DNA from: Edaphobacter lichenicola
GTDB lineage: Bacteria > Acidobacteriota > Terriglobia > Terriglobales > Acidobacteriaceae
NCBI RefSeq assembly: GCF_014201315.1
Contig: NZ_JACHDY010000001.1
Coordinates: forward strand, 992,001-1,056,000
Length of the DNA stretch: 64,000 bases
Direction of reading: 5' to 3'
Shown here: positions 3,683 through 43,227 of the stretch, in pieces
Position numbering within the stretch: the first letter of the stretch is position 1
How the letters are laid out: every line of letters starts with the position of its first letter
Notes under the pieces: model-generated
Seen by the model: only the letters and a program-made list of their open reading frames with translations
Database searches by the model: none
What the model was told of the DNA's origin: nothing
Program-made: the position numbers and the translations under genes

Positions 3683-3861
3683 TGTCCTGCCGGACGGGCC
3701 TCCTGCGCGGAGGGCGGGCGTTCGCACGCCTTTTTAGAGCTTCGCGTGGTCCTCCCGATGGTCGGAGTCATCTTCATCGCGACCAACGGGAGCGCCAACC
3801 GAAGGGGTATACAAGTCGCGAAGTGACCGCCCCACGCGTAGTGGTCCCGTCCGGCAGGACA
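3683..3861. repeat. Stop-adjacent hairpin repeat, family I, locus 1 (inverted pair)
   Basis: Two units point towards each other. The left unit starts TGTCCTGCCGGACGGGC and the right unit ends with its reverse complement at 3861. Second-hairpin stems are CCTCC/GGAGG (left) and CCAC/GTGG (right), with loops TGCGC and TACGC. The left unit has a degenerate third hairpin. The right end is 8 bp from the stop of the ATP-grasp gene. Confidence 0.85.
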
Positions 3862-4928: not shown

Positions 4929-5041
4929 TGTCCTGCCGGACGGGCCCACTGCGCGTGGGACGGTCACTTCGTGACTTGTATACCGGTCCTGGTTGGGGAT
5001 GTGCTTGGGTCCTCCCGTTGGTCGGGTCGTTGGTCGGGTCA
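4929..5041 (+). repeat. Stop-adjacent hairpin repeat, family I, locus 2 (single unit)
   Basis: Begins TGTCCTGCCGGACGGGC. The second hairpin is CCCAC(TGCGC)GTGGG, the third GTCAC(TTC)GTGAC, followed by TTGTATACC and CCTCCCGTTGGTCGG. The last part, GTTGGTCGGGTC, is duplicated. It ends about 10 bp from the stop of the esterase gene at 5052. Confidence 0.85.
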
Positions 5042-9427: not shown

Positions 9428-10237
9428 ATGCGCTTTGACATCATTACGATCTTTCCCGATTTCTTTGCCGGGCCCTTCGACTACGGGATTCTGAAGCGTG
9501 CTCGCACGACGGGTCTGGTAGAGATTGCGACGCATGATCTGCGCAGCTTCACGCATGATCGCCATCGAACGGTGGACGACCGGCCGTTTGGTGGGGGCGA
9601 AGGGATGGTGCTGAAGGCGCAGCCAATCTATGACGCGGTGCAGTCGTTGAATCTCTCTCCGAAGGGGGAACGGGATCGAGGCAGAGAGACGGTGATTCTG
9701 CTGTCGGCGCAGGGGCAGCCGTTCACTCAGTCGCTGGCGCAGGAGCTTTCGACGACGGAGCGGGTGGTTATTCTGTGCGGGAGATATGAGGGCGTGGACG
9801 AGCGCGTCAACGAACTGCTCTGCGACCGGGAGATTTCAATTGGCGATTATGTTTTGTCGGGCGGAGAGCTGGCGGCCGCGGTGATCGTCGATGCTGTGGT
9901 ACGGCTGCTGCCGGGGGCTCTGGGGAATCCTGACTCGTCGCGATTTGAGAGCTTCGGTGCGGATGAGGTTGCGGATCTTCCTGATTCGGCGGATGGGCCT
10001 CCGCGGTCTACTTATGGGTCGGGTGGGTTGCTGGACTATCCACACTACACTCGGCCCGCGGATTTTATGGGGATGACGATCCCCGAAGCGCTGTCGGGGG
10101 GTAATCATGAGGTGATCCGGCGATGGCGGAGGAGGATGGCGCTGAAGAAGACGCTGGAGAATCGTCCGGATTTGTTGGAGAGGATCGAGATCACAGACGA
10201 GGATCGGGAGATTCTGGCGGAGCTTCGCGGTGACTAA
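9428..10237 (+). CDS. trmD: tRNA (guanine-37-N1)-methyltransferase
   Basis: A 269-residue SPOUT methyltransferase that makes m1G37 and prevents frameshifting. It opens [13 protein letters not shown], the classic TrmD start; the knot region contains [15 protein letters not shown] and [16 protein letters not shown]. The C-terminal domain ends in a helical segment ([19 protein letters not shown]). The ATG at 9428 lacks a strong Shine-Dalgarno but fits the family start exactly. An insert [19 protein letters not shown] before the YPHYTRP motif makes it slightly longer than average. A family I repeat begins 5 bp after its stop. Confidence 0.95.
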
Positions 10238-10242
10238 AGATG

Positions 10243-10345
10243 TGTCCTGCCGGACGGGCCTCCTGCGCGGAGGACGGTCACTTCGTGACTTGTATACCTT
10301 GTTGGTGAGGGGTGAAGAGGATCGGTCCTCCCGTTGGTCGGAGGA
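10243..10345 (+). repeat. Stop-adjacent hairpin repeat, family I, locus 3 (single unit)
   Basis: A unit between trmD and rplS. The second hairpin is CCTCC(TGCGC)GGAGG and the third GTCAC(TTC)GTGAC, followed by TTGTATACC and CCTCCCGTTGGTCGG. It starts 5 bp after the trmD stop, in the transcript of a ribosomal-protein operon. Confidence 0.85.
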
Positions 10346-19174: not shown

Positions 19175-19280
19175 TGTCCTGCCGGACGGGCGCCCTGCGC
19201 GGGCGGCGGTCACTTCGTGACTTGTATACCGCTTCGCTTGGTGCTCCCGTTGGTCGCAGGCTAAAGTTCGTGCCGATCCA
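19175..19280 (+). repeat. Stop-adjacent hairpin repeat, family I, locus 4 (single unit)
   Basis: The unit lies between the convergent stops of the DUF1275 gene (19142) and msrP (19293). The second hairpin is CGCCC(TGCGC)GGGCG, a 5-bp stem different from loci 2 and 3 but fully complementary; the third is GTCAC(TTC)GTGAC. It then reads TTGTATACCGCTTCGCTTGG. Confidence 0.85.
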
Positions 19281-23362: not shown

Positions 23363-24130
23363 ATGATGACTGGAGAGAGAGAAAGCCAACTGATTGAGGC
23401 TGCGGATCTGCTGCTGGATGCGCGTAGGACGGGTGTGCCGATCGAGGATCTGCCGGAGGCTTTGCAGCCGAAGGATATGACTGAGGCTTATGCGCTGCAG
23501 GATCATATCGCAGAGGCGTATGGCGCGATTGGCGGGTGGAAGATCGGGGCTCCGAGTGCGGAGGCCGAACCGTTGTTTGCGCCGATGCCGCGGGCGTGGA
23601 TGGCGGGGGATGGCGCGGTGGTTGGCGAGGTGCGGAGATATCGCGGACTGGAGTCGGAGATTGCTTTTTTGATGGGCGAGGATCTGCCGGGGCGGGCTAC
23701 GCCGTACTCACGGGAGGAGGTCGTCGCTGCTATTGCGAGCTGCCATCCGGCTATCGAGGTGATTGAGAGTGGCCTGCTGGATCCGTTGAAGGCGGCGCGG
23801 ATGTCGATGCTCGGCGATCTGCAGATGCATGGTGGGTTTGTGTATGGGCCGGCCGTGGCGGAGTGGAAGAAGATCGACTTCAAGACCGAGCATGTGGTGA
23901 TCGCGGTCGATGGTGCGGTGAGGGTGGAGCGGACGGGATCGAATACTTCGGGAGACTTGATGCGGCTGCTGCCGTGGCTGGCGAACGAGGGCGCTGCGAG
24001 GACTGGTGGATTGAAGGCTGGACAGTGGGTGACGACGGGGAGTTGGACCGGGGTGACTGCGGCTAATTCGGGGTCTGTTGCAGATGTGAAGTTTTCTTCC
24101 GCGGGTGAGGTTCATCTGCGGTTTGAGTAG
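23363..24130 (+). CDS. FAH/2-keto-4-pentenoate-hydratase-fold protein
   Basis: About 255 residues of the MhpD/FAH-like fold. Seen: YALQDHIAEAYGAIGGWKIG, ESEIAFLMGEDLPGR (acidic metal ligands), AIEVIESGLLD, and the C-terminal LKAGQWVTTGSWTG. Family members hydrate 2-hydroxypentadienoates or decarboxylate related acids in aromatic meta-cleavage pathways. No other meta-cleavage genes are near, so the substrate is open. ATG at 23363 is used; a TTG at 23318 would add 15 residues. A family I repeat begins on the base after its stop codon. Confidence 0.75.
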   Translation: MMTGERESQLIEAADLLLDARRTGVPIEDLPEALQPKDMTEAYALQDHIAEAYGAIGGWKIGAPSAEAEPLFAPMPRAWMAGDGAVVGEVRRYRGLESEIAFLMGEDLPGRATPYSREEVVAAIASCHPAIEVIESGLLDPLKAARMSMLGDLQMHGGFVYGPAVAEWKKIDFKTEHVVIAVDGAVRVERTGSNTSGDLMRLLPWLANEGAARTGGLKAGQWVTTGSWTGVTAANSGSVADVKFSSAGEVHLRFE

Positions 24131-24325
24131 GTCCTGCCGGACGGGCGCCCTGCGCGGGCAGCGGTCACTTCGTGACTTGTATACCGCTTCGCGTGGTGCT
24201 CCCGTTGGTCGCAGGCTGAAGTTCGTGCCGACCAACGGGAGGACTGTGGGTGTTCGTCCTGCCGAGACCGGTATACGCGTCACGAAGTGACCGCTCTCCG
24301 CGCAGGGCGCCCGTCCGGCAGGACC
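24131..24325. repeat. Stop-adjacent hairpin repeat, family I, locus 5 (near-perfect inverted pair)
   Basis: A 195-bp pair of head-to-head units between two convergent genes. The outer 47 bp of each arm match with two mismatches, starting GGTCCTGCCGGACGGGC. The left edge touches the stop codon of the hydratase-like gene; the right edge is 7 bp from the stop of the amidinotransferase-fold gene. Both units keep GTCAC(TTC)GTGAC. Confidence 0.9.
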
Positions 24326-24332
24326 TATCAGC

Positions 24333-25208
24333 CTAAAGTGCGGCGTGGCTCAACTTCATGACCAGGCATTTTGCGGCGCCACCAGCTTTGAGGAACTCGG
24401 TGAGCGTGACTTCGATGACGTCGAAGCCGCGGGACTCGAGTTGGCTGCGTAGATCACTGCTGATGTTGTTCAGGATGATCGTGCGATCGACGTTGATGGC
24501 GTTGCAGGCGAAGCAGACGGCATCCGACTCGGCGACGATGATTCTTTTTTCGAGTGGGTAGAAGGCTTCGATCTTGTCGAGAGAGGCTCGGTCGAAGGCC
24601 TCCGGGAAGTACATGACGTAGCCGCCTTCGAGGGGAGCGAAGCAGGTGTCGAGGTGGTAGAAGCGCGGGTCGATGAGGTGGAGTGAGGTGACCTCGATGC
24701 CCCAGATCTTGCGGAGCGCTTGATGGCTGGAGGGGACGGTGCGTGGGCCGTAACCGACAAAGAGACGGGTGCCGTCGGTGGAGAAGAGGGCGTCGCCTTC
24801 GCCTTCAAAGGGCGTGGCGCGGGGGGTGTCCATGACCTTGTAACCGGCTTGTTCGAACCAGCGGCGGAAGTGTGGCTCTTCGCCCTGGCGCTCGGGATGG
24901 AAGAAGCTGCTGATGGCGACGGTGCCGTTGCGCTCGAGGCCGGCGTTGGCGGTGAAGACCATGTCGGGGGAGCCGGGTTGGGGTTCGACGAGCTGGACGT
25001 CGGCGATGGTGCTGACGGCTTCGTAGAGACGCTGCCACTGTTCGGCTGCGCGGGTGCGCGAGGAGGCGTGGACGTTGCCGGCCATCCAGGGGTTTATGAC
25101 GTAGTTGACGTCGTAGAGCCTGGGGGGACACATGAGGAAGGTCGCTGAGGTGGAAGGAATCGTGGCCAGGATTGCCGGGTTGGTGATATCGATGGGCTGC
25201 GTACTCAT
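24333..25208 (-). CDS. Arginine-deiminase-fold hydrolase (DDAH/amidinotransferase family)
   Basis: A 291-residue pentein-fold protein. Substrate-guanidinium residues are in GSPDMVFTANAGLE, then FEGEGDALF, the catalytic His in FYHLDTCFAPLEGG, and the nucleophilic Cys in KAGGAAKCLVMKL near the C-terminus. Members include dimethylargininase, arginine deiminase-like hydrolases and glycine amidinotransferase. The size and FEGEGDAL motif favour a DDAH or arginine-dihydrolase-type enzyme over ADI of the arc operon. It stands alone; both ends are bounded by family I repeats. Confidence 0.8.
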   Translation of the reverse strand: MSTQPIDITNPAILATIPSTSATFLMCPPRLYDVNYVINPWMAGNVHASSRTRAAEQWQRLYEAVSTIADVQLVEPQPGSPDMVFTANAGLERNGTVAISSFFHPERQGEEPHFRRWFEQAGYKVMDTPRATPFEGEGDALFSTDGTRLFVGYGPRTVPSSHQALRKIWGIEVTSLHLIDPRFYHLDTCFAPLEGGYVMYFPEAFDRASLDKIEAFYPLEKRIIVAESDAVCFACNAINVDRTIILNNISSDLRSQLESRGFDVIEVTLTEFLKAGGAAKCLVMKLSHAAL

Positions 25209-25289: not shown

Positions 25290-25389
25290 TGTCCTGCCGG
25301 ACGGGCCCACTGCGCGTGGAGCGCCCACTTCGTGACTTGTATACCGCTTCGCTTGGCGCTCCCGCGAGGATGATGATTCCGACCAACGG
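25290..25389 (+). repeat. Stop-adjacent hairpin repeat, family I, locus 6 (single unit plus linker)
   Basis: The second hairpin is CCAC(TGCGC)GTGG. The third has CCCAC on the left but GTGAC on the right, so only part of the stem pairs, an intermediate between the two paired versions at other loci. The right end is GATGATTCCGACCAACGG and abuts the GH43 stop at 25391. Confidence 0.8.
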
Positions 25390-25390
25390 T

Positions 25391-26467: not shown

Positions 26468-26645
26468 TGTCCTGCCGGACGGGCCCACTACGCTTGCCAC
26501 CCCACGAACGAAGACCTGTTCGCGGGGACCCCGATTCGAGCGCCCACTTCGTGGGGTGTATACCGCTTCGCTTGACGCTCCCGTTGGTCGCGATGGAGAA
26601 GATGATTCCGACCGCGGGAAGCGTATACGCGTTACGAAGTGATCC
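26468..26645. repeat. Stop-adjacent hairpin repeat, family I, locus 7 (pair with insertion)
   Basis: The left unit starts TGTCCTGCCGGACGGGC, but about 45 extra bases (about 26499-26543) break its second hairpin. The third hairpin reads CCCAC(TTC)GTGGG, a compensated change on both arms relative to GTCAC/GTGAC. The right unit is degenerate (GTATACGCGTTACGAAGTGA). It ends 15 bp from the hppD stop. Confidence 0.8.
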
Positions 26646-29523: not shown

Positions 29524-29719
29524 TGTCCTGCCGGACGGGCACCCTACGCGGGCAGCGCCCACTTCGTGGGGGGTATACCGCTTCGCTTGGTGCTCCCGTT
29601 GGTCGCAGAATGAAGTTCGTGCTGACCAACGGGAGGACCGTGAGTGTTATGTGCTGCCTCGACCGGTATACGCGTCACGAAGTGACCGCCCCACGCGCAG
29701 TGGGCCCGTCCGGCAGGAC
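29524..29719. repeat. Stop-adjacent hairpin repeat, family I, locus 8 (inverted pair)
   Basis: Two head-to-head units between fahA and the RND permease. The left unit has CCC(TACGC)GGG and a third hairpin CCCAC(TTC)GTGGG. The right unit has CCCAC(TGCGC)GTGGG and GTCAC(TTC)GTGAC. Both changes within the pair preserve pairing. The right end is about 9 bp from the permease stop. Confidence 0.9.
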
Positions 29720-29728
29720 GAGAGTCTC

Positions 29729-35545: not shown

Positions 35546-38500
35546 TTAGAACGAGAACTTGGCGGCTAGCTGGACGAGACACGGGGCTGCGGCACTGACG
35601 ATCTTGCCGAAGTTCTGCGTGTCTTCTACTTGTCCATCGACGGAGGCGGGGCCGTAGAACTGGGTGTGGTTGAAGGTGTTGAAGGATTCGAGGCGGAACT
35701 CCAGGGACTTTGACTCGGCGAAGCGGAGATTCTTCTGGAGGGCCATGTCGAAGTTGTTGATGCCGGGGCCGTAGAAGATGCGGCGCCTGGCGTCTCCGAG
35801 TTGGCCGAGGTTTTCTTCCGGGAAGAGAGCGGTGTTAAAGGCTGGGCGGCCGTTGCGTCCGTTGGTGTTGATCTTGAGCGCGCCCGGGAGGTACTGCGGG
35901 GTGTCGAGGAGATAGTTGTTGGCTCCGTTGCCTAGAGTGCCGAGGAGAGAGTTGTCGGAGTTGTCGAATAAGGTGACGGGGAAGCCGGTAGCGAAGCGAA
36001 TGGTGCCGGAGAGGCTCCACTCTTCGGTGAGGCGATTGCTCTTGTGGAGGAGAGAGGCGATGGGAAGGGCCCAGGTGTAACTGCCGACGAAGTTGTGCTT
36101 GAGGTCCCAGGCGGAGATGGTGCGGCTTTGGCGTGGGTCGATTGGGTTGAGTTGTTCGCCGAGGCTTGAGCCCTGGTCGATGGATTTGGCGTAGGTGTAG
36201 CTGAGGAGGAACTGCGAGCCGTGATGCTGGTAGCGGAGGGTGGTTTCGAGGGCGTTGTAGTTGGAGCTGGCTGCGGATTTGTCGGCTGTGTTTTCGCCAT
36301 AGTTGGGGCCCTGACATACGCGAGTTCCCTGCACTGTTTGACCGGCACTGTTGGTGTAGGTGGAGTCTTCGCCGAAGGGGCCGCAGCCGTTGAGGCTGAG
36401 ACAGAGCGCGGGGTTGCCGGGGTTGGCGGAGACGAGGGTGAGGATGCGGTGGCCTTGATTGCCGACGTAGCTGACGGTGAGTAGCGTGTGGCCCGTGATC
36501 TGACGCTGGAGGGAGAGCATGTAGCTGCTGGTGTAGGGAGCGCGGTTGCGGTAGTAGAAGAAGGGGTCTGCCGCGATGGGTGTGAAGTTGACCCAGTTGA
36601 CCGAGGTGTCGGGGTTGGTGCGGGAGACTGAGTGCGAGGGGAACGGGAAGGGAAAACGTTGGCCGTTGTTGACGCCGGTGGCGGCGGTGATGAAGGGCGT
36701 TGCGAGTAATGGTGGAGCGGGGCTGAGGTAGTTGAAGCCGAAGGGCGGGACGGAGTACATGATTCCTGCGGAGAGGCCGGGGAAGGCGGTGTAGAAGAGG
36801 CCGTAGCTGGCGTGGATGCTGGACTGGCCGCTGGCTCCGAAGATCTTGCTCCAAAAGCCGTCGCTGAACTTTGGGGAGTAGGCGAAGCCAATGCGCGGGG
36901 CGAAGTTTTTGTAGCCTGTGGGAGCGATGGTTTTGGGAACGCCTGGATCGCCGGCGACGACGAAGCCTTCGGGGGCTCCGGGATAGAGGGTTGATTGTTC
37001 TCCGGGGATGTAGGTCTGGAGTTGATTGTATTTTTCGGACCAGGGTGCGATGAGGTCCCAACGGAGGCCGGCGTTGATGGTGAGGTCTCGGCGGGCGCGC
37101 CAGCTGTCTTGCACGTAGAGGCCGAGGTAGTGATTGCGCAGATAGAAGGGCTGGCCGGAGGATTGGGTGAAGTTGCTTGGCGTACCGAGGAGGAAGTCGG
37201 CGTAGGGGTCTCCGGTCTCGGTGCCGTTGATGTTGAAGGTGCCGTTGAAGGTGGCGTTGGGATGCTCGTTGACCTGGTCAATGTGGAACTGGACGCCGAG
37301 CTTGAGGGTGTGTGCGCCGATGGATCGCGAGACGCCATCGCTCAGGTAGAAGGTGTTGTTGACCTGGGTGATGTTCGTGATGGGGACACCCATGACGAAG
37401 GTGGGGAAGGTGATGTTTTCGACGCCTTCGAACTGCGGAGCCTGGACGACGATGCCTGGAGTATTCGCGCCGGTGGTGAAGCCCTGAGATGCGAGGCTGA
37501 CGCCGAGGCCTCCCTTCGGCTGGCCGACGATGTTGGCGTTGCGCAGATAGCCTGCGTGAAATTCGTTGACGGTGTTCGTGCCGATGGCTTTTGTATCTCC
37601 TACGGAGAAGAGTTGCGCTCTGCCGATGAAGAGGGCGTCGAAGCCGGGGATGCTTGCTCCAGCGACGGAGCCAGGGTAGGGGTTGTCGAGGTTGTAGTCG
37701 TCGAGGAAGTAGTAGGCGGAGAGCTGACCGATGCGGGTGTTGGCGTCGATGCGTGCGGAGCCTTTGTCGTCGCGGACGGTTTGCGAGAAGGCAGAGGTGG
37801 AGAACTGGTTCTGGCCTACGTTCGGGGAGGGGATGTAGGGGAGGAGATTTCTTGCAGGAGCGGACCATGCGCTTTCGGGGATGTTTCCATCGGGAAAGAC
37901 GCTAGTGTAGGGTTCGCCGGCGGTGATGGTGCGGCCTAGCTGCTGGCTGAGCAGGGATGCGAGGTAGGGGCCGCTGACGGATCCGGCGAGGTCGTTGAAG
38001 GTGCCGGTGCGTTGGGCGAGTGAGGGGACGGAGATGTTTCCGGTGGAGACGCCTTGGGTGGTTCGGGTTCCCTGGTAGTCGGCGAAGAAGAAGATCTGGT
38101 CGCGCTTGATGGGGCCGCCGATGGTGCCGCCGAACTGATTTTGGTTGTAGGCGGCGCGGGTTTGATCGAAGTAGCCCCTGGCGTCGAGGTTGGTGTTGCG
38201 GAAGAACTCGAAGGCTTTGCCGTGAAGGTGGTTGGCTCCGGATTTGCTGACTACGGTGATGATGCCGCCGTTGTAGTTGCCATATTCGGGATCGAAGTTG
38301 GCGGTGAGGACGCGGAACTCTTCGATGGAATCCAGATTTGGGATGACGGCGGTGCCGCCGTTCATGGGCTCCTCGACGTCGATTCCGTTGACCAGGAAGC
38401 CGTTGGAGGATTCGCGCTGGCCGTTGATGGAGAGGTTGCCGGGGTTTGCGTCGCCGGAGGGGTCGATGCCACCGGTGACGCCGGCCATGATGACAGAGCT

Positions 38501-39040
38501 TGGCAGGAGGGTGGAGACGGGGGCGACGCCGGGCTGGATGGCGAGCAGGTCGGTGTAGCTGCGGCCGTTGAGGGGGATGGTGGTCATCTGTTCGCTGGAG
38601 ACGACTTCGCCGAGGTGGGTTGCGGTGGTGTCAACCTGAACGCCGACCTCGCTGGTGACGGTGACGACGTCGGAGCGTGTGCCGATTTCGAGGGAGGCGT
38701 TGACGCGGAGGGCGGAGTCGGCGTCTACGGACAGGTTGGCTTTTCGCTGTGTGTTGAAGCCTGCGGCGGCGATGTCGAGGTCGTAGTGGCCTACGGGTAG
38801 ATTTGGGAAGGTGTAGAAGCCCTGCTTGTCGGAGACTGCGTTGTAGGTCGTCTGCTGGGCGGTGTTGACCAGCTTGAGGGCTGCTCCTATGACTACGGCG
38901 CCGCTCTGGTCGGTGATGGCGCCGGAGATGCTGCCGCCGGTTGCTGCGTGAAGAAGCGATGCGATGAGTAAGAGGAATGCGAGTGCCAGTTTCGCTAGAA
39001 GCACTCTGGCTGCGGGAGAGATTGACTTCAATAAGAGCAC
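35546..39040 (-). CDS. Oar-like TonB-dependent receptor under cobalamin riboswitch control
   Basis: 1164 residues. A signal peptide (LALAFLLLIASLLHAA), then a carboxypeptidase-regulatory-like beta sandwich (GGSISGAITDQSGAVVIGAA), a plug domain (TIPLNGRSYTDLLAIQPG, NGQRESSNGFLVNGIDVEEP) and a long barrel ending in LVQLAAKFSF with a terminal Phe. Such receptors are expanded in Acidobacteria and mostly of unknown substrate. A cobalamin riboswitch at 39133-39298 on the same strand lies about 90 nt before the GTG start (39040, GAGG nearby). I infer corrinoid or vitamin B12 import. BtuB proteins are about half this length, so this would be a structurally different B12 receptor. Confidence 0.85.
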   Translation of the reverse strand: MLLLKSISPAARVLLAKLALAFLLLIASLLHAATGGSISGAITDQSGAVVIGAALKLVNTAQQTTYNAVSDKQGFYTFPNLPVGHYDLDIAAAGFNTQRKANLSVDADSALRVNASLEIGTRSDVVTVTSEVGVQVDTTATHLGEVVSSEQMTTIPLNGRSYTDLLAIQPGVAPVSTLLPSSVIMAGVTGGIDPSGDANPGNLSINGQRESSNGFLVNGIDVEEPMNGGTAVIPNLDSIEEFRVLTANFDPEYGNYNGGIITVVSKSGANHLHGKAFEFFRNTNLDARGYFDQTRAAYNQNQFGGTIGGPIKRDQIFFFADYQGTRTTQGVSTGNISVPSLAQRTGTFNDLAGSVSGPYLASLLSQQLGRTITAGEPYTSVFPDGNIPESAWSAPARNLLPYIPSPNVGQNQFSTSAFSQTVRDDKGSARIDANTRIGQLSAYYFLDDYNLDNPYPGSVAGASIPGFDALFIGRAQLFSVGDTKAIGTNTVNEFHAGYLRNANIVGQPKGGLGVSLASQGFTTGANTPGIVVQAPQFEGVENITFPTFVMGVPITNITQVNNTFYLSDGVSRSIGAHTLKLGVQFHIDQVNEHPNATFNGTFNINGTETGDPYADFLLGTPSNFTQSSGQPFYLRNHYLGLYVQDSWRARRDLTINAGLRWDLIAPWSEKYNQLQTYIPGEQSTLYPGAPEGFVVAGDPGVPKTIAPTGYKNFAPRIGFAYSPKFSDGFWSKIFGASGQSSIHASYGLFYTAFPGLSAGIMYSVPPFGFNYLSPAPPLLATPFITAATGVNNGQRFPFPFPSHSVSRTNPDTSVNWVNFTPIAADPFFYYRNRAPYTSSYMLSLQRQITGHTLLTVSYVGNQGHRILTLVSANPGNPALCLSLNGCGPFGEDSTYTNSAGQTVQGTRVCQGPNYGENTADKSAASSNYNALETTLRYQHHGSQFLLSYTYAKSIDQGSSLGEQLNPIDPRQSRTISAWDLKHNFVGSYTWALPIASLLHKSNRLTEEWSLSGTIRFATGFPVTLFDNSDNSLLGTLGNGANNYLLDTPQYLPGALKINTNGRNGRPAFNTALFPEENLGQLGDARRRIFYGPGINNFDMALQKNLRFAESKSLEFRLESFNTFNHTQFYGPASVDGQVEDTQNFGKIVSAAAPCLVQLAAKFSF

Positions 39041-39132
39041 GTTCGCCTCGAGAAAGGCGTGGTAATCAGGCTAGGCTCAGGATGAGTGAGCGATCGCCCC
39101 CGTTTCCACGCGGGGTAGAATCACGACTTCTC

Positions 39133-39298
39133 CTGGGTAGGTCTCCTGACTTACAGGCGAAGCTGCTGTTGAGCGGCTCCTGACTCTTCGCCTTCCCCGA
39201 TGGACTGAGTGGCTCGTGAAGAGTCTTTTCCTGATTACAGTGGCGGGACCATGCCGGACTTACACCGGCTTCCCTTTTATGCCCTCGCGGGCACCCAG
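39133..39298 (-). promoter_or_regulatory. Cobalamin (B12) riboswitch
   Basis: On the minus strand it reads GGTGCCC, a hairpin, GGGAAGCCGGTGTAAGTCCG, then GGTCCCGCCACTGTAA, and further down AAGTCAGGAGACC, the conserved B12 elements in order. The closing stem pairs CTGGG (about 39294-39298) with CCCAG (39133-39137). Adenosylcobalamin binding normally blocks translation or transcription of the following gene, here the TonB receptor. Confidence 0.93.
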
Positions 39299-39370
39299 AA
39301 TGTTTCTCTTACAAACTAGCATAAAAGGAAAAATTTGCGGTATCCAAACATAGAAACTACTTGTCGGCGG

Positions 39371-40260: not shown

Positions 40261-43227
40261 ATGGTTAACGTAGCCGCATTCCTTAATTCGCTTGTCGCCT
40301 CGCCACTGTTCCAGTCGCGCCTTACTGTTTTGGCGGACGATCGACGATCAGGCAGCTGGATCAGGCGCCGGTCGGGAGGCATACGGCTTCTGACTGCGAC
40401 GCTTGCACTGCTGGTGATGACTGCTTGCGGTGGAGGATGGAATGGCTACTATGGTCAAGCTCCGACCATTACGAAACAGCCGGTAAGCGTGACCGTGAAT
40501 GTGGGACAGACCGCGACGTTCAGCGTTACCGCGACGGGAACCGGGCCCCTTACGTATCAGTGGTTCGACAACGGAACGGCGATCCCCGGAGCGACTTCGA
40601 GCACCTACACGACGCCGGCGGCTGCGAGCACCGATAGTGGTTCAGTGTTTACCGTGACGGTTACAAATGCAGCGGGCAGCGTGACTAGTACACCGGCCAC
40701 TCTGACGGTGGCTGTCGGTTCAACGACCGTGCCGCCGAACGCTCCGCTTGTGATCAGCCAGCCGGCAAACCAGACCGTACAGGTGGGCCAGACCGCGACC
40801 TTCAGCGTTACGGCTTCTGGGACCGCTCCGCTTACCTACCAGTGGTCCAAGAACGGGACTTTGATCCCCGGCGCGACTTCGAGCAGCTACACCACGCCTG
40901 CGACGGTGATCGGCGATAACAACTCGCTGTTTACGGTGACTGTAACCAATGCGGCTGGGGCAGCCACGAGTAATCCGGCTACTCTGACGGTCATACCTTT
41001 GGCTGCCAGTCTGGCTTGTGGCTCGTCCACTCCGCCGTACAACTCCTCTGCGACTCTGACTCCTACCTTCTCGGGCGGCGCGGCAGTCCTCGGATCGACT
41101 GGCGTGGGGAGTAGCGATATCACGTCGTCGGCAGTCAGCGGCAGCTCCTATTCGACTCCGCTGCTGACCTCGGCTAAGACGTACACGCTGTCGGTCACGG
41201 GCACGGGAGGTGCGGTTGTTTCGGCCACGTGCACGGTTACACCGACGAGTGTGACGATCTCGCCGATCTCACCAGCGAATGCGACGATTGCTCCCGGGAC
41301 TCAGACCTTTACCGCGACTGCCTCCGGGGGCGCTACGAATGGCTTGATATGGACGGCCAGCGCAGGAAGCTTTGCCGGTAATGTATGGACCTCTCCAAAC
41401 ACAGTCGGGACCTACACGATTACAGCTACCAGTGTCGATGAGCCTTCTGTTTCGACGACCACGAGCGTAACCGTTAGTGTGCCGGTGATCACGACGCAAC
41501 CCTCCGGCGTGAATCTCTGCAACAATGCCTCGACCACTCTTTCTGTCGTCGCGATGTATGCAACGACGTATCAGTGGTTCTTCAACGGGTCGCCGATTGC
41601 CGGGGCTACCAGCTCGAGCTACTTTATCCCCAGCGCAGTGGCGATGGATGTCGGCAGCTATTCGGTCACGGTTACAAATGCCGCGGGCAGTGTCACCTCG
41701 AATGTCATCAAGGTGGTGGTCGGAACTACGATTACCTCGAATCCGGTGAGCCTGACGATCGTCGCGGGGCAGACGGCCTCGGGGGGGCAGACCGCCACGT
41801 TCTCGGTTGCGGCTGAGGGAGACGCTCCGTTCAGCTACCAGTGGTACGTGATTGCTCCAGGCAGCTCGACAGGAGTTGCGATCGCCGGAGCTACCTCTAG
41901 CACGTATACGACGCCCGTAGCAGCGAACACGAATCCTAGCGGCACGAAGTACTACGCCACGGTCACAGACAGCTGCGGAAGCGTGCTTACAAGCGCTTCG
42001 GCGACGTTGACCATCGTCTCCGGCAATGACCCGCCCACGATCATTACGCAACCTGTAAGCCAGACGGTGGCGATTGGCAGCACGCCCACGTTCACTGTGG
42101 TTGCGGCTGGATCGCCTACGCTCACGTATCAGTGGTACCAGATACCTGCGGGCAGCGTGAACGGTATTGCGGTCTCGGGCGCAACCTCCGCCTCGTACAC
42201 TCTGCCGACGACTGCGACCAACATCAGCAATGATCAGGACGGCTACTATGTCATCGTCAGTAACGCCTATGGGACGGCGCTGTCTCAGACTGCCACGCTG
42301 TCGGTTGGGACTGGGATCCAGATTACGAAGCAGCCGGTAAATGATTACGTCAACGTGGGAGATCCGGGTACCTTCTCAGTGACGGCTACTTCGACGCTTC
42401 CTTTGACCTACCAGTGGTTTGAGGCAGCACCGGGCAGCGCTACTTTCTCTGCGATTCCGGGAGCAACGAGTGCGACCTATACGCAGCCTTCGACGGTTGC
42501 TTCCGACTCCGGTTCGGTCTTCTATGTGGTGGTGAGCAACGGAAGTTCTCCCGCGGTTACGAGCAACTCGGCTTCCCTGTTCGTCGGAACTCTAACTGGT
42601 ATCGGCAATCTGTGCTCTGGTTGGAAGTTGATTGGCAATGCCCTTCCGCCTACGCCAGACTGTTCGATTCAACTGGTCGCTGCGACTACGGGTCAACGCG
42701 GGGAGATCGTCTGGCCGAACCTCATCTCCACCGGCAACATTCAACTTAGTTTCACGATAACCACTAGTGACTCAAGCAGTCCGCCGGCGGATGGCTTTGC
42801 GATGGTGTTGGGCGATCCATCGCTGGGAGCGACAACCAACAGTATTGGAACGACTGGAGGGGGATTAGGTGCGGAGGGAATTCCGGGGATCGTGCTTGCC
42901 TTCGACGATTACCACGATCCGGGCGATCCACCTGTTCCCTACATCGGTATAGGGAGGGGAGAGACTGCTCTGTGGGAGAATCCTTACTTCAACCTTAATA
43001 GGAATATCGCGCCGCTCGCGGCCGCTGGTGTCACGGTATCGCATAGCTATGTGGTCTCGCTTGTGCAGGGCATGATGACGGTGACGATGGATGGGGTTCA
43101 GGTTTTCTCAGGCAGCGTAACGGCTCCTCCTGTGGCCTACCTTTACTTCACCGCTTCTACCGGTGCTCTCGACGAGCAAACGGTCATCAGCAACCTCTCA
43201 GCCACGATTACTGCACCGTCCAACTGA
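40261..43227 (+). CDS. Multi-Ig-domain surface lipoprotein with lectin-like C-terminus
   Basis: 988 residues. After a 40-residue basic leader comes a lipobox-like end (LLVMTACGGG, residue about 58). Ig-like repeats follow, each marked by a TFSVTA strand, a YQW tryptophan, GATSSTYTTP and VTVTNAAGSVTS. At least five clear copies lie at about residues 70-150, 160-245, 400-485, 490-585, 590-680 and 685-775, with a degenerate region between 250 and 400. The last 190 residues (IQLSFTITTSD, ADGFAMVLGD, IPGIVLAFDDYHDPG, HSYVVSLVQGMMTVTMDG) resemble legume-lectin-fold sugar-binding domains. The start has AGGAG 5 nt upstream. A surface adhesion or glycan-binding role is inferred. Confidence 0.75.
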   Translation: MVNVAAFLNSLVASPLFQSRLTVLADDRRSGSWIRRRSGGIRLLTATLALLVMTACGGGWNGYYGQAPTITKQPVSVTVNVGQTATFSVTATGTGPLTYQWFDNGTAIPGATSSTYTTPAAASTDSGSVFTVTVTNAAGSVTSTPATLTVAVGSTTVPPNAPLVISQPANQTVQVGQTATFSVTASGTAPLTYQWSKNGTLIPGATSSSYTTPATVIGDNNSLFTVTVTNAAGAATSNPATLTVIPLAASLACGSSTPPYNSSATLTPTFSGGAAVLGSTGVGSSDITSSAVSGSSYSTPLLTSAKTYTLSVTGTGGAVVSATCTVTPTSVTISPISPANATIAPGTQTFTATASGGATNGLIWTASAGSFAGNVWTSPNTVGTYTITATSVDEPSVSTTTSVTVSVPVITTQPSGVNLCNNASTTLSVVAMYATTYQWFFNGSPIAGATSSSYFIPSAVAMDVGSYSVTVTNAAGSVTSNVIKVVVGTTITSNPVSLTIVAGQTASGGQTATFSVAAEGDAPFSYQWYVIAPGSSTGVAIAGATSSTYTTPVAANTNPSGTKYYATVTDSCGSVLTSASATLTIVSGNDPPTIITQPVSQTVAIGSTPTFTVVAAGSPTLTYQWYQIPAGSVNGIAVSGATSASYTLPTTATNISNDQDGYYVIVSNAYGTALSQTATLSVGTGIQITKQPVNDYVNVGDPGTFSVTATSTLPLTYQWFEAAPGSATFSAIPGATSATYTQPSTVASDSGSVFYVVVSNGSSPAVTSNSASLFVGTLTGIGNLCSGWKLIGNALPPTPDCSIQLVAATTGQRGEIVWPNLISTGNIQLSFTITTSDSSSPPADGFAMVLGDPSLGATTNSIGTTGGGLGAEGIPGIVLAFDDYHDPGDPPVPYIGIGRGETALWENPYFNLNRNIAPLAAAGVTVSHSYVVSLVQGMMTVTMDGVQVFSGSVTAPPVAYLYFTASTGALDEQTVISNLSATITAPSN

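Follow-up and report, generated by a model that had tools for sequence, protein, structure and literature searches.

A dispersed family of three-hairpin palindromic repeats close to stop codons in Edaphobacter lichenicola

The window analyzed here is a stretch of 64,000 nt from the genome of Edaphobacter lichenicola (contig NZ_JACHDY010000001.1, positions 992,001 to 1,056,000 of the forward strand), and all positions are counted from its first letter. It contains 11 complete units and one headless unit of a palindromic repeat, located at 8 intergenic loci. Each unit is composed, in this order, of a head (GTCC-TGCC-GGAC), an A hairpin (stem-TGCGC-stem), a B hairpin (stem-TTC-stem), a GTATACC-like box and one half of a central hairpin. 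Two head-to-head units form a dimer which can be folded end to end. Half of the loci are singles; the other four are head-to-head pairs, of which one has a headless arm. Eight heads are found on the plus strand and three on the minus strand, one head showing one mismatch, and the called genes of the window contain none of them. The distances to the nearest stop codon given below were measured between called gene ends and unit ends, the tail ends being nominal.

3683-3861: head-to-head dimer with arms 3683-3739 (plus) and 3806-3861 (minus), 9 nt from a stop; in the left arm the GGGCGTTCGCACGCCTTTTT module replaces the GTCAC-TTC-GTGAC hairpin
4929-5041, plus strand: single unit; a minus-strand gene stops (5052) about 10 nt beyond its tail
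10243-10345, plus strand: single unit, starting 6 nt past the stop of a plus-strand gene which ends at 10237
19175-19280, plus strand: single unit with convergent genes on either side, the stops lying 33 nt from its head side and about 12-17 nt from its tail
24130-24325: head-to-head dimer with convergent genes on either side, arms 24130-24185 (plus) and 24270-24325 (minus), central hairpin at about 24199-24241, stops at 0 and 8 nt
25290-25390, plus strand: single unit; a minus-strand gene stops (25391) right at its nominal tail (0 nt)
26468-26645: dimer with a headless right arm and, in its left arm, the CGAAGACC cassette within the A loop; a minus-strand gene stops (26661) 15 nt away
29524-29720: head-to-head dimer with arms 29524-29579 (plus) and 29665-29720 (minus); a minus-strand gene stops (29729) 9 nt away
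39119-39313, minus strand: cobalamin riboswitch (Rfam RF00174, 95.7 bits); the large ORF 35546-39040 follows it directly on the same strand
40477-40991: two 233-nt copies in tandem, which are 75% alike, and an incomplete third one near 41566; they fall inside the 988-aa ORF 40261-43227 and look like repeated protein domains

The original prediction had counted 12 units in four paired and four single loci. All loci proved to be real and the division into pairs and singles is correct, although the twelfth unit, which is the right arm of 26468-26645, has no head. The predicted anatomy of the unit is correct overall, except that the GTCAC(TTC)GTGAC hairpin, given as constant, is also variable. As proposed together with that prediction, a covariance model of the family was built from 71 distinct units, some of them window units; in the window it recovers the 11 units and shows no match outside the 8 loci.

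The head motif is frequent in the whole 4.88-Mb genome. With up to two mismatches allowed, 314 matches (153 + 161) were obtained, compared to 13 (5 + 8) for the reversed pattern, which excludes chance. For the analysis of gene context, 41 stretches including the window were read, 864 kb in total. As most of them were picked for containing copies, this sample is enriched for the repeat, yet all position comparisons were made within it. It contains 131 heads, which are arranged in 39 head-to-head pairs and 53 singles; at least two of these heads (L136 17766 and L159 1292) resemble chance matches by eye and were retained. The dimers measure 177-196 bp in 30 of the 39 pairs.

Genes were called by our own dicodon model (75.5% coding), which probably misses some genes, so that the intergenic null is inflated. 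None of the 131 heads lies inside a called gene. The proximity to stop codons was analyzed for the 88 elements flanked by called genes, 4 of the 92 elements being dropped for lack of one. A stop is found within 20 nt of 62 and within 35 nt of 70 of these 88 elements. Uniform intergenic positions reach only 7.5% and 11.7% at the two distances, and random re-insertion into the same gap yields 39.9% and 51.8%. The comparison to random intergenic positions suggested with the original prediction reveals an association with stop codons in the 864 kb. A distance of at most about 35 bp, which had been claimed for every locus, holds for all 8 window loci but not for the larger sample (70 of 88). At tandem junctions 78% of the elements are located within 20 nt of a stop, compared to 29% after re-insertion, and at convergent junctions 73% compared to 56%. 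An element is present in 39 of 111 convergent but in only 6 of 107 divergent intergenic regions (Fisher P = 3e-8). Dimer heads which face a 3' end are mostly found within 20 nt of it (36 of 47, median 8 nt), which is rare for heads turned towards a 5' end (3 of 27, median 61 nt). Singles are placed more loosely than dimers, a 3' end being no more than 20 nt away from 21 of 35 heads and 19 of 41 tails. The flanks of the 131 heads are purine-rich at positions -9 to -4 and show T at position -1 in 79% of cases. This base bias is partly the stop codon itself and perhaps a target preference.

The modules of the unit are exchangeable, as seen from swaps of the B module and from an A-loop cassette. 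The B hairpin occurs in the variants CCCAC/GTGGG, GCCAC/GTGGC and ATCAC/GTGAT, and in 14 of the 131 units a terminator-like GGGCGTTCGCACGCCTTTTT-type module stands in its place. The A-loop cassette is likewise present in 14 of 131 units; a stricter cassette pattern detected 13 copies in the 864 kb, every one inside the three-hairpin family. The whole dimer 24130-24325, the one whole dimer that was folded, reaches -160.5 kcal/mol (z -16.4). Six single units fold no better than shuffled sequences (z +0.46 to -1.67).

The stems are held in the paired state and show strong covariation. Among the 71 distinct units, 85 double-change cells with retained pairing were counted, compared to 21 after shuffling, and the covariation score was 0.251 compared to 0.075, with slid controls at 0.066 or below; the alignment includes the L158 row, which is out of register owing to its loop cassette. 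Two of the five covariation measures are not clearly above the shuffles: 6 pairs show a double change compared to 4.6 (a value matched in 25 of 500 shuffles), and 12 further pair types were found in the 71 units compared to 12.2 in the shuffles. A structure-free scan over all column pairs ranked three A-stem and two B-stem pairs at the top. RNAalifold predicted the same three hairpins, A being shorter by one pair and B longer by three. The head stem is nearly invariant in this genome, each of its GTCC/GGAC pairs being intact in 70 or more of the 71 rows. In the relative G073, four of seven copies carry GCGC/GCGC around TGCC instead and one carries GGCC/GGCC around TGTC; of the remaining two heads, one has a single broken pair and one is unrecognisable. 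Of 35 dimers, 9 carry identical A words in both arms, compared to 7.1 after shuffling. As the A words are thus independent between the arms, what is conserved appears to be the local hairpins and not the complementarity of one arm to the other.

The A stem is composed in an unusual way. On the 5' side of its three variable pairs, exactly one base is not C in 69 of 71 fully paired arms of this genome and in 137 of 146 fully paired arms from loci outside this genome, a set which pools genomes and includes orthologues. The word CCC was seen 0 and 1 times, while 19.8 and 39.2 occurrences are expected from independent columns; arms without a fully paired A stem (14 of 85 and 11 of 157) are omitted from these counts. 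Six words are common, namely CCA, CTC, GCC, CCG, TCC and CGC, followed by TCG.

To follow the change of these words at orthologous sites, we used relatives with about 91% DNA identity. Of the elements of this genome (G000) with flanks found, 14 of 16 are present in G041 and 8 of 9 in G057; in the opposite direction, 12 of 14 elements of G041 and 8 of 8 of G057 are retained here. An arm-by-arm comparison over a larger set of stretches found 15 of 18 and 23 of 34 (38 of 52 in total). Since most elements are common to the relatives, the copies are mostly older than these species, although arms do get lost. Within the window, the unit at 19175-19280 has a counterpart at this position in both G041 and G014, and the dimer 26468-26645 is missing at the orthologous site in these two. 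At the 29524 site, G041 and G014 have two heads each, G057, G063, G045 and G002 have one each, and the remaining alignable orthologous stretches have none.

In register are 25 of the 38 arm pairs, which derive from 21 arms, four of them compared twice. Between orthologous arms the A-stem columns differ by 0.41, compared to 0.50 between random copies; four-fold sites differ by 0.171 (G041, 79 genes) and 0.219 (G057, 153 genes). The 75 A-stem pair sites divide into 42 unchanged ones, 28 with changes on both sides that keep the pairing, 2 with a one-sided change that also keeps it, and 3 broken ones. The compensated changes come predominantly in twos: 11 arm pairs have none, 1 has one, 12 have two and 1 has three. 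Under independence 44% single changes are expected (P = 1e-5 for so few), and with one comparison per arm the distribution is 11, 0, 9 and 1 of 21 (P = 4e-6). The best fit to this pattern, supported but not proven by the comparison of orthologues, is a replacement of the A-stem word in one step by that of another copy. Such an exchange would proceed by ectopic gene conversion or template switching and not by stepwise mutation. Selection for words with one non-C could alternatively force two-pair steps; it predicts a change slower than neutral, however, and the A stem is not slower. Differences between orthologues approach saturation in the linker columns 46, 47 and 50 as well (0.35 vs. 0.49) and less so in the B stem (0.09 vs. 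0.24), and exchange may therefore extend beyond A. The unit at 25290 carries a mismatched hybrid B hairpin (CCCAC-TTC-GTGAC) where its G041 orthologue has CCCAC-TTC-GTGGG, which fits an exchange ending within B. A more far-reaching version, in which the copies form an exchanging pool across the genus and each A stem is a slot that holds one of about six words and is rewritten by copying, seems doubtful to us. If it were true, 3'-end hairpins would evolve by word swapping and not by transposition or point mutation, and a spread even without any transposase may be possible.

Within the genus, 25 of 62 genomes contain the exact core of the repeat; G000, G057 and G076 have 190-194 core copies each, and many others have none. 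Across the class it occurs in 15 of 399 genomes, all of them in one genus out of 135. A search of the taxonomic family with the covariance model, carried out with strict filters and at most 47 scored candidates per genome, yielded matches in 5 of 120 genomes, three in the genus and two (G498 and G461) in another. In G498, 260 kb contain 53 units including 17 dimers of 81-146 bp, 11 of which measure 135-146 bp and are built around a central hairpin region. These units have no recognisable head but retain the loops of both A (TGCGC) and B as well as a box resembling GTNTACC. Here, too, 25 of 44 edges facing a 3' end are located within 20 nt of it, compared to 4 of 22 facing a 5' end, and only 1 of 33 scored elements lies inside a called gene. 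The dimer centres of G498 (L259-L269) vary between copies, the longest exact stem being 19 or 21 bp in 2 of 11.

A search of a plasmid collection gave no match to the three-hairpin repeat at E 0.01. The 17-mer head TGTCCTGCCGGACGGGC was also found in Oscillospiraceae, Puteibacter, Streptomyces and others among the matches listed. At 15 of these foreign loci inspected by eye, the sequence beyond the head is different. When 80 of 120 stretches with the 17-mer were scored with the covariance model, other groups reached at most 28.2 bits, except for one Rhodanobacteraceae contig with 34.8 bits. Among the matches listed, TGTCCTGCCGGACGGGC heads other repeats which continue with CTTCTTT- or CTTCATTTTTGG-type A/T-rich hairpins (L018, L036, L038, L039 and L070 in Oscillospiraceae MAGs, L015 and L057 in Puteibacter, L082 in Pedobacter), and the Oscillospiraceae MAGs contain several such stretches per genome.

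Head-to-head dimers placed between genes at 3' ends are reminiscent of REP sequences which are moved as REPINs by a resident RAYT (Y1 HUH transposase), and this genome, in which a search for such a gene had been suggested, contains three Y1_Tnp genes. A search for Y1_Tnp (PF01797) in 20 genomes revealed 28 loci in 14 genomes and none in the other 6. However, no head, core or tail of the family is located in the flanking DNA analyzed, up to 1.5 kb on either side, of any of the 28 loci. Ten of them (7 of 21 and 3 of 7) are accompanied by a different palindrome instead, GGGGCTWWAGCCCC or GCGGCTWWAGCCGC, of the form GGGGCT..AGCCCC or GCGGCT..AGCCGC. Four genomes without a Y1_Tnp match are still rich in core copies (G014 with 137, G002 with 61, G045 with 24 and G044 with 102), and the GTAG/GGAG tag is missing before the head. 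A RAYT was therefore rejected as evident carrier, and we consider it improbable that the units are REPs of this type. In this genome, another palindromic repeat, GGGGCTTTAGCCCC / GCGGCTTTAGCCGC, adjoins two of the three Y1_Tnp genes (L002 1934; L003 1371-1934, in L003 on both sides); it is also found near several Y1 genes of the relatives, and its core has 9 copies in the 864 kb. A RAYT accompanied by a REP family of its own would be expected to look like this. The dimer might otherwise represent a miniature inverted-repeat transposon (MITE) moved by a DDE transposase. Its long terminal inverted repeats and dominant length of 177-196 bp are in agreement with this, but singles outnumber dimers, and the few near-empty sites showed no clean target-site duplication; they were sought in the G041 and G057 stretches and, in the case of five elements of the window, in 15 relatives with 16 orthologous stretches. 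The stretches analyzed contain 92 neighbouring head pairs, none of which is oriented plus-then-minus at 260-4000 bp, an arrangement which would be expected of a longer autonomous copy. We regard a MITE as improbable. Insertions absent from close species are few (2 of 16 and 1 of 9), and as no Y1_Tnp gene could be tied to the family either, its mobility is inferred from its copy number.

Regarding the function, the placement at convergent junctions, together with the terminator-like module of some units, raises the question whether the family consists of canonical bidirectional intrinsic terminators. With a lax criterion used without control, a hairpin followed by a T-tract is present on the two strands in 13 and 16 of 35 dimers, and in the full dimers of G498 in 9 of 11 on the plus and 6 of 11 on the minus strand. 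Gene ends with an element also rarely show a terminator-like hairpin within 230 nt (4 of 84, compared to 69 of 421 without an element), although the element itself occupies most of that stretch. With a stricter criterion, however, only 10 of 92 elements have a hairpin and T-tract, compared to 27 of 207 intergenic controls, which argues that most elements are not canonical intrinsic terminators, and in the window between 18000 and 30500 no terminator-like site falls within the elements. This function thus appears rather unlikely for the family. It is known that template-switch correction of quasi-palindromes can produce covariation without selection. The copies could accordingly be neutral debris whose palindromes are kept perfect by template switching and which survives only at harmless sites behind stop codons, purifying selection against all other sites then yielding the location bias. 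We consider this unlikely, too. The A-stem words shift in two-pair blocks and not singly, almost exclusively words with one non-C are in use, the proximity to stops exceeds that of random re-insertion within the same gap, and another genus shares the loops of A and B together with the GTNTACC box.

The stop-proximal placement, the convergent bias and the conserved hairpins fit a role at mRNA 3' ends, and judged from these features the copies probably act as 3'-end RNA hairpins. Transcripts of the adjoining genes would carry the elements at their 3' ends. Like E. coli REPs, the hairpins could then block 3'-to-5' decay, restrict read-through between facing genes and possibly modulate translation at the stop codon. 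A lowering of translation was reported for E. coli REPs located 15 nt or less from a stop (as cited in the available text of PMC12306157). In the past, the units may have spread as non-autonomous elements with a helper.

The observation of a repeat at stop codons is confirmed, and its interpretation as REP/BIME-like is supported by the palindromic head-to-head pairs and singles, which are intergenic and close to 3' ends. The original prediction knew of no named family with this consensus, and we found none either: in Rfam, the window gave only the cobalamin riboswitch and three tRNAs at gathering score, and the best matches of the element at 24100-24360 (E 0.66) and of one G498 element (E 0.19) are below the gathering threshold. 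Three core strings were not found in the open-access paper texts searched, and no description turned up in searches of the accessible literature for repeats of Acidobacteria, Edaphobacter, Granulicella or Acidobacteriaceae. Palindromes in Granulicella aggregans are counted in the available text of PMC12306157. The best explanation, which we hold to be reasonably probable, is a new REP/BIME-like family of dispersed palindromic repeats that form 3'-end hairpins, were spread by a helper and are reshuffled by exchange between copies. It would add a large multi-hairpin family for the Acidobacteriota, whose diverged cousin occurs in a second genus and for which a Y1 transposase offers no explanation. 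A few hundred copies, mostly located just past stop codons, provide a natural experiment on the effect of 3'-end hairpins on termination, decay and translation, and the six-word stem with its block switching is a testable case of exchange between dispersed repeats in bacteria.

Several known systems resemble the family described here. BOX elements of Streptococcus pneumoniae, which belongs to another phylum, are modular intergenic repeats with stable hairpins and are similar in these respects. GTAG REP/BIME sequences, like the E. coli REPs and the Pseudomonas REPINs, are alike in their high copy number, intergenic location, dimers and singles, variable paired stems and frequent placement within 20 bp of 3' ends at convergent or tandem junctions (available text of PMC3733652). 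According to the same text, most of the GTAG and CGTC REPs at convergent junctions are located less than 20 bp from 3' ends, and the stop-hugging itself is therefore not new. A GTAG REP consists of one palindrome of 20-40 bp as far as described there, whereas the unit found here has about 100 nt and three hairpins. It also differs in an A stem of about six words, the lack of a linked RAYT and the absence of a GTAG-type tag from the base counts before the 131 heads. CGTC REPs share the mostly head-to-head dimers, the 3'-end placement and the absence of a dedicated transposase, and the TGTC which opens the unit is a stated variant of their tag (PMC3733652, available text). Their AT-start stem of 8-9 bp and CCA tail, as given in that text, are both missing here: in the alignment of 71 units TGTC is followed by CTGCCGGAC without such a stem, and the GTC of TGTC is itself paired. 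Class 3 TnpA-Y1 structures of Acidobacteria and Planctomycetes are also high-copy complex secondary structures, but in the available text of PMC6006769 they flank tnpA genes and carry a CnGA foot, an association which was not found for this family. The family is thus set apart from REPs by its size, its three hairpins, its lack of the features of either tag and its word-like A stem. New here is the middle stem with about six words, nearly always with exactly one non-C, and their switching in blocks of two pairs at orthologous sites.
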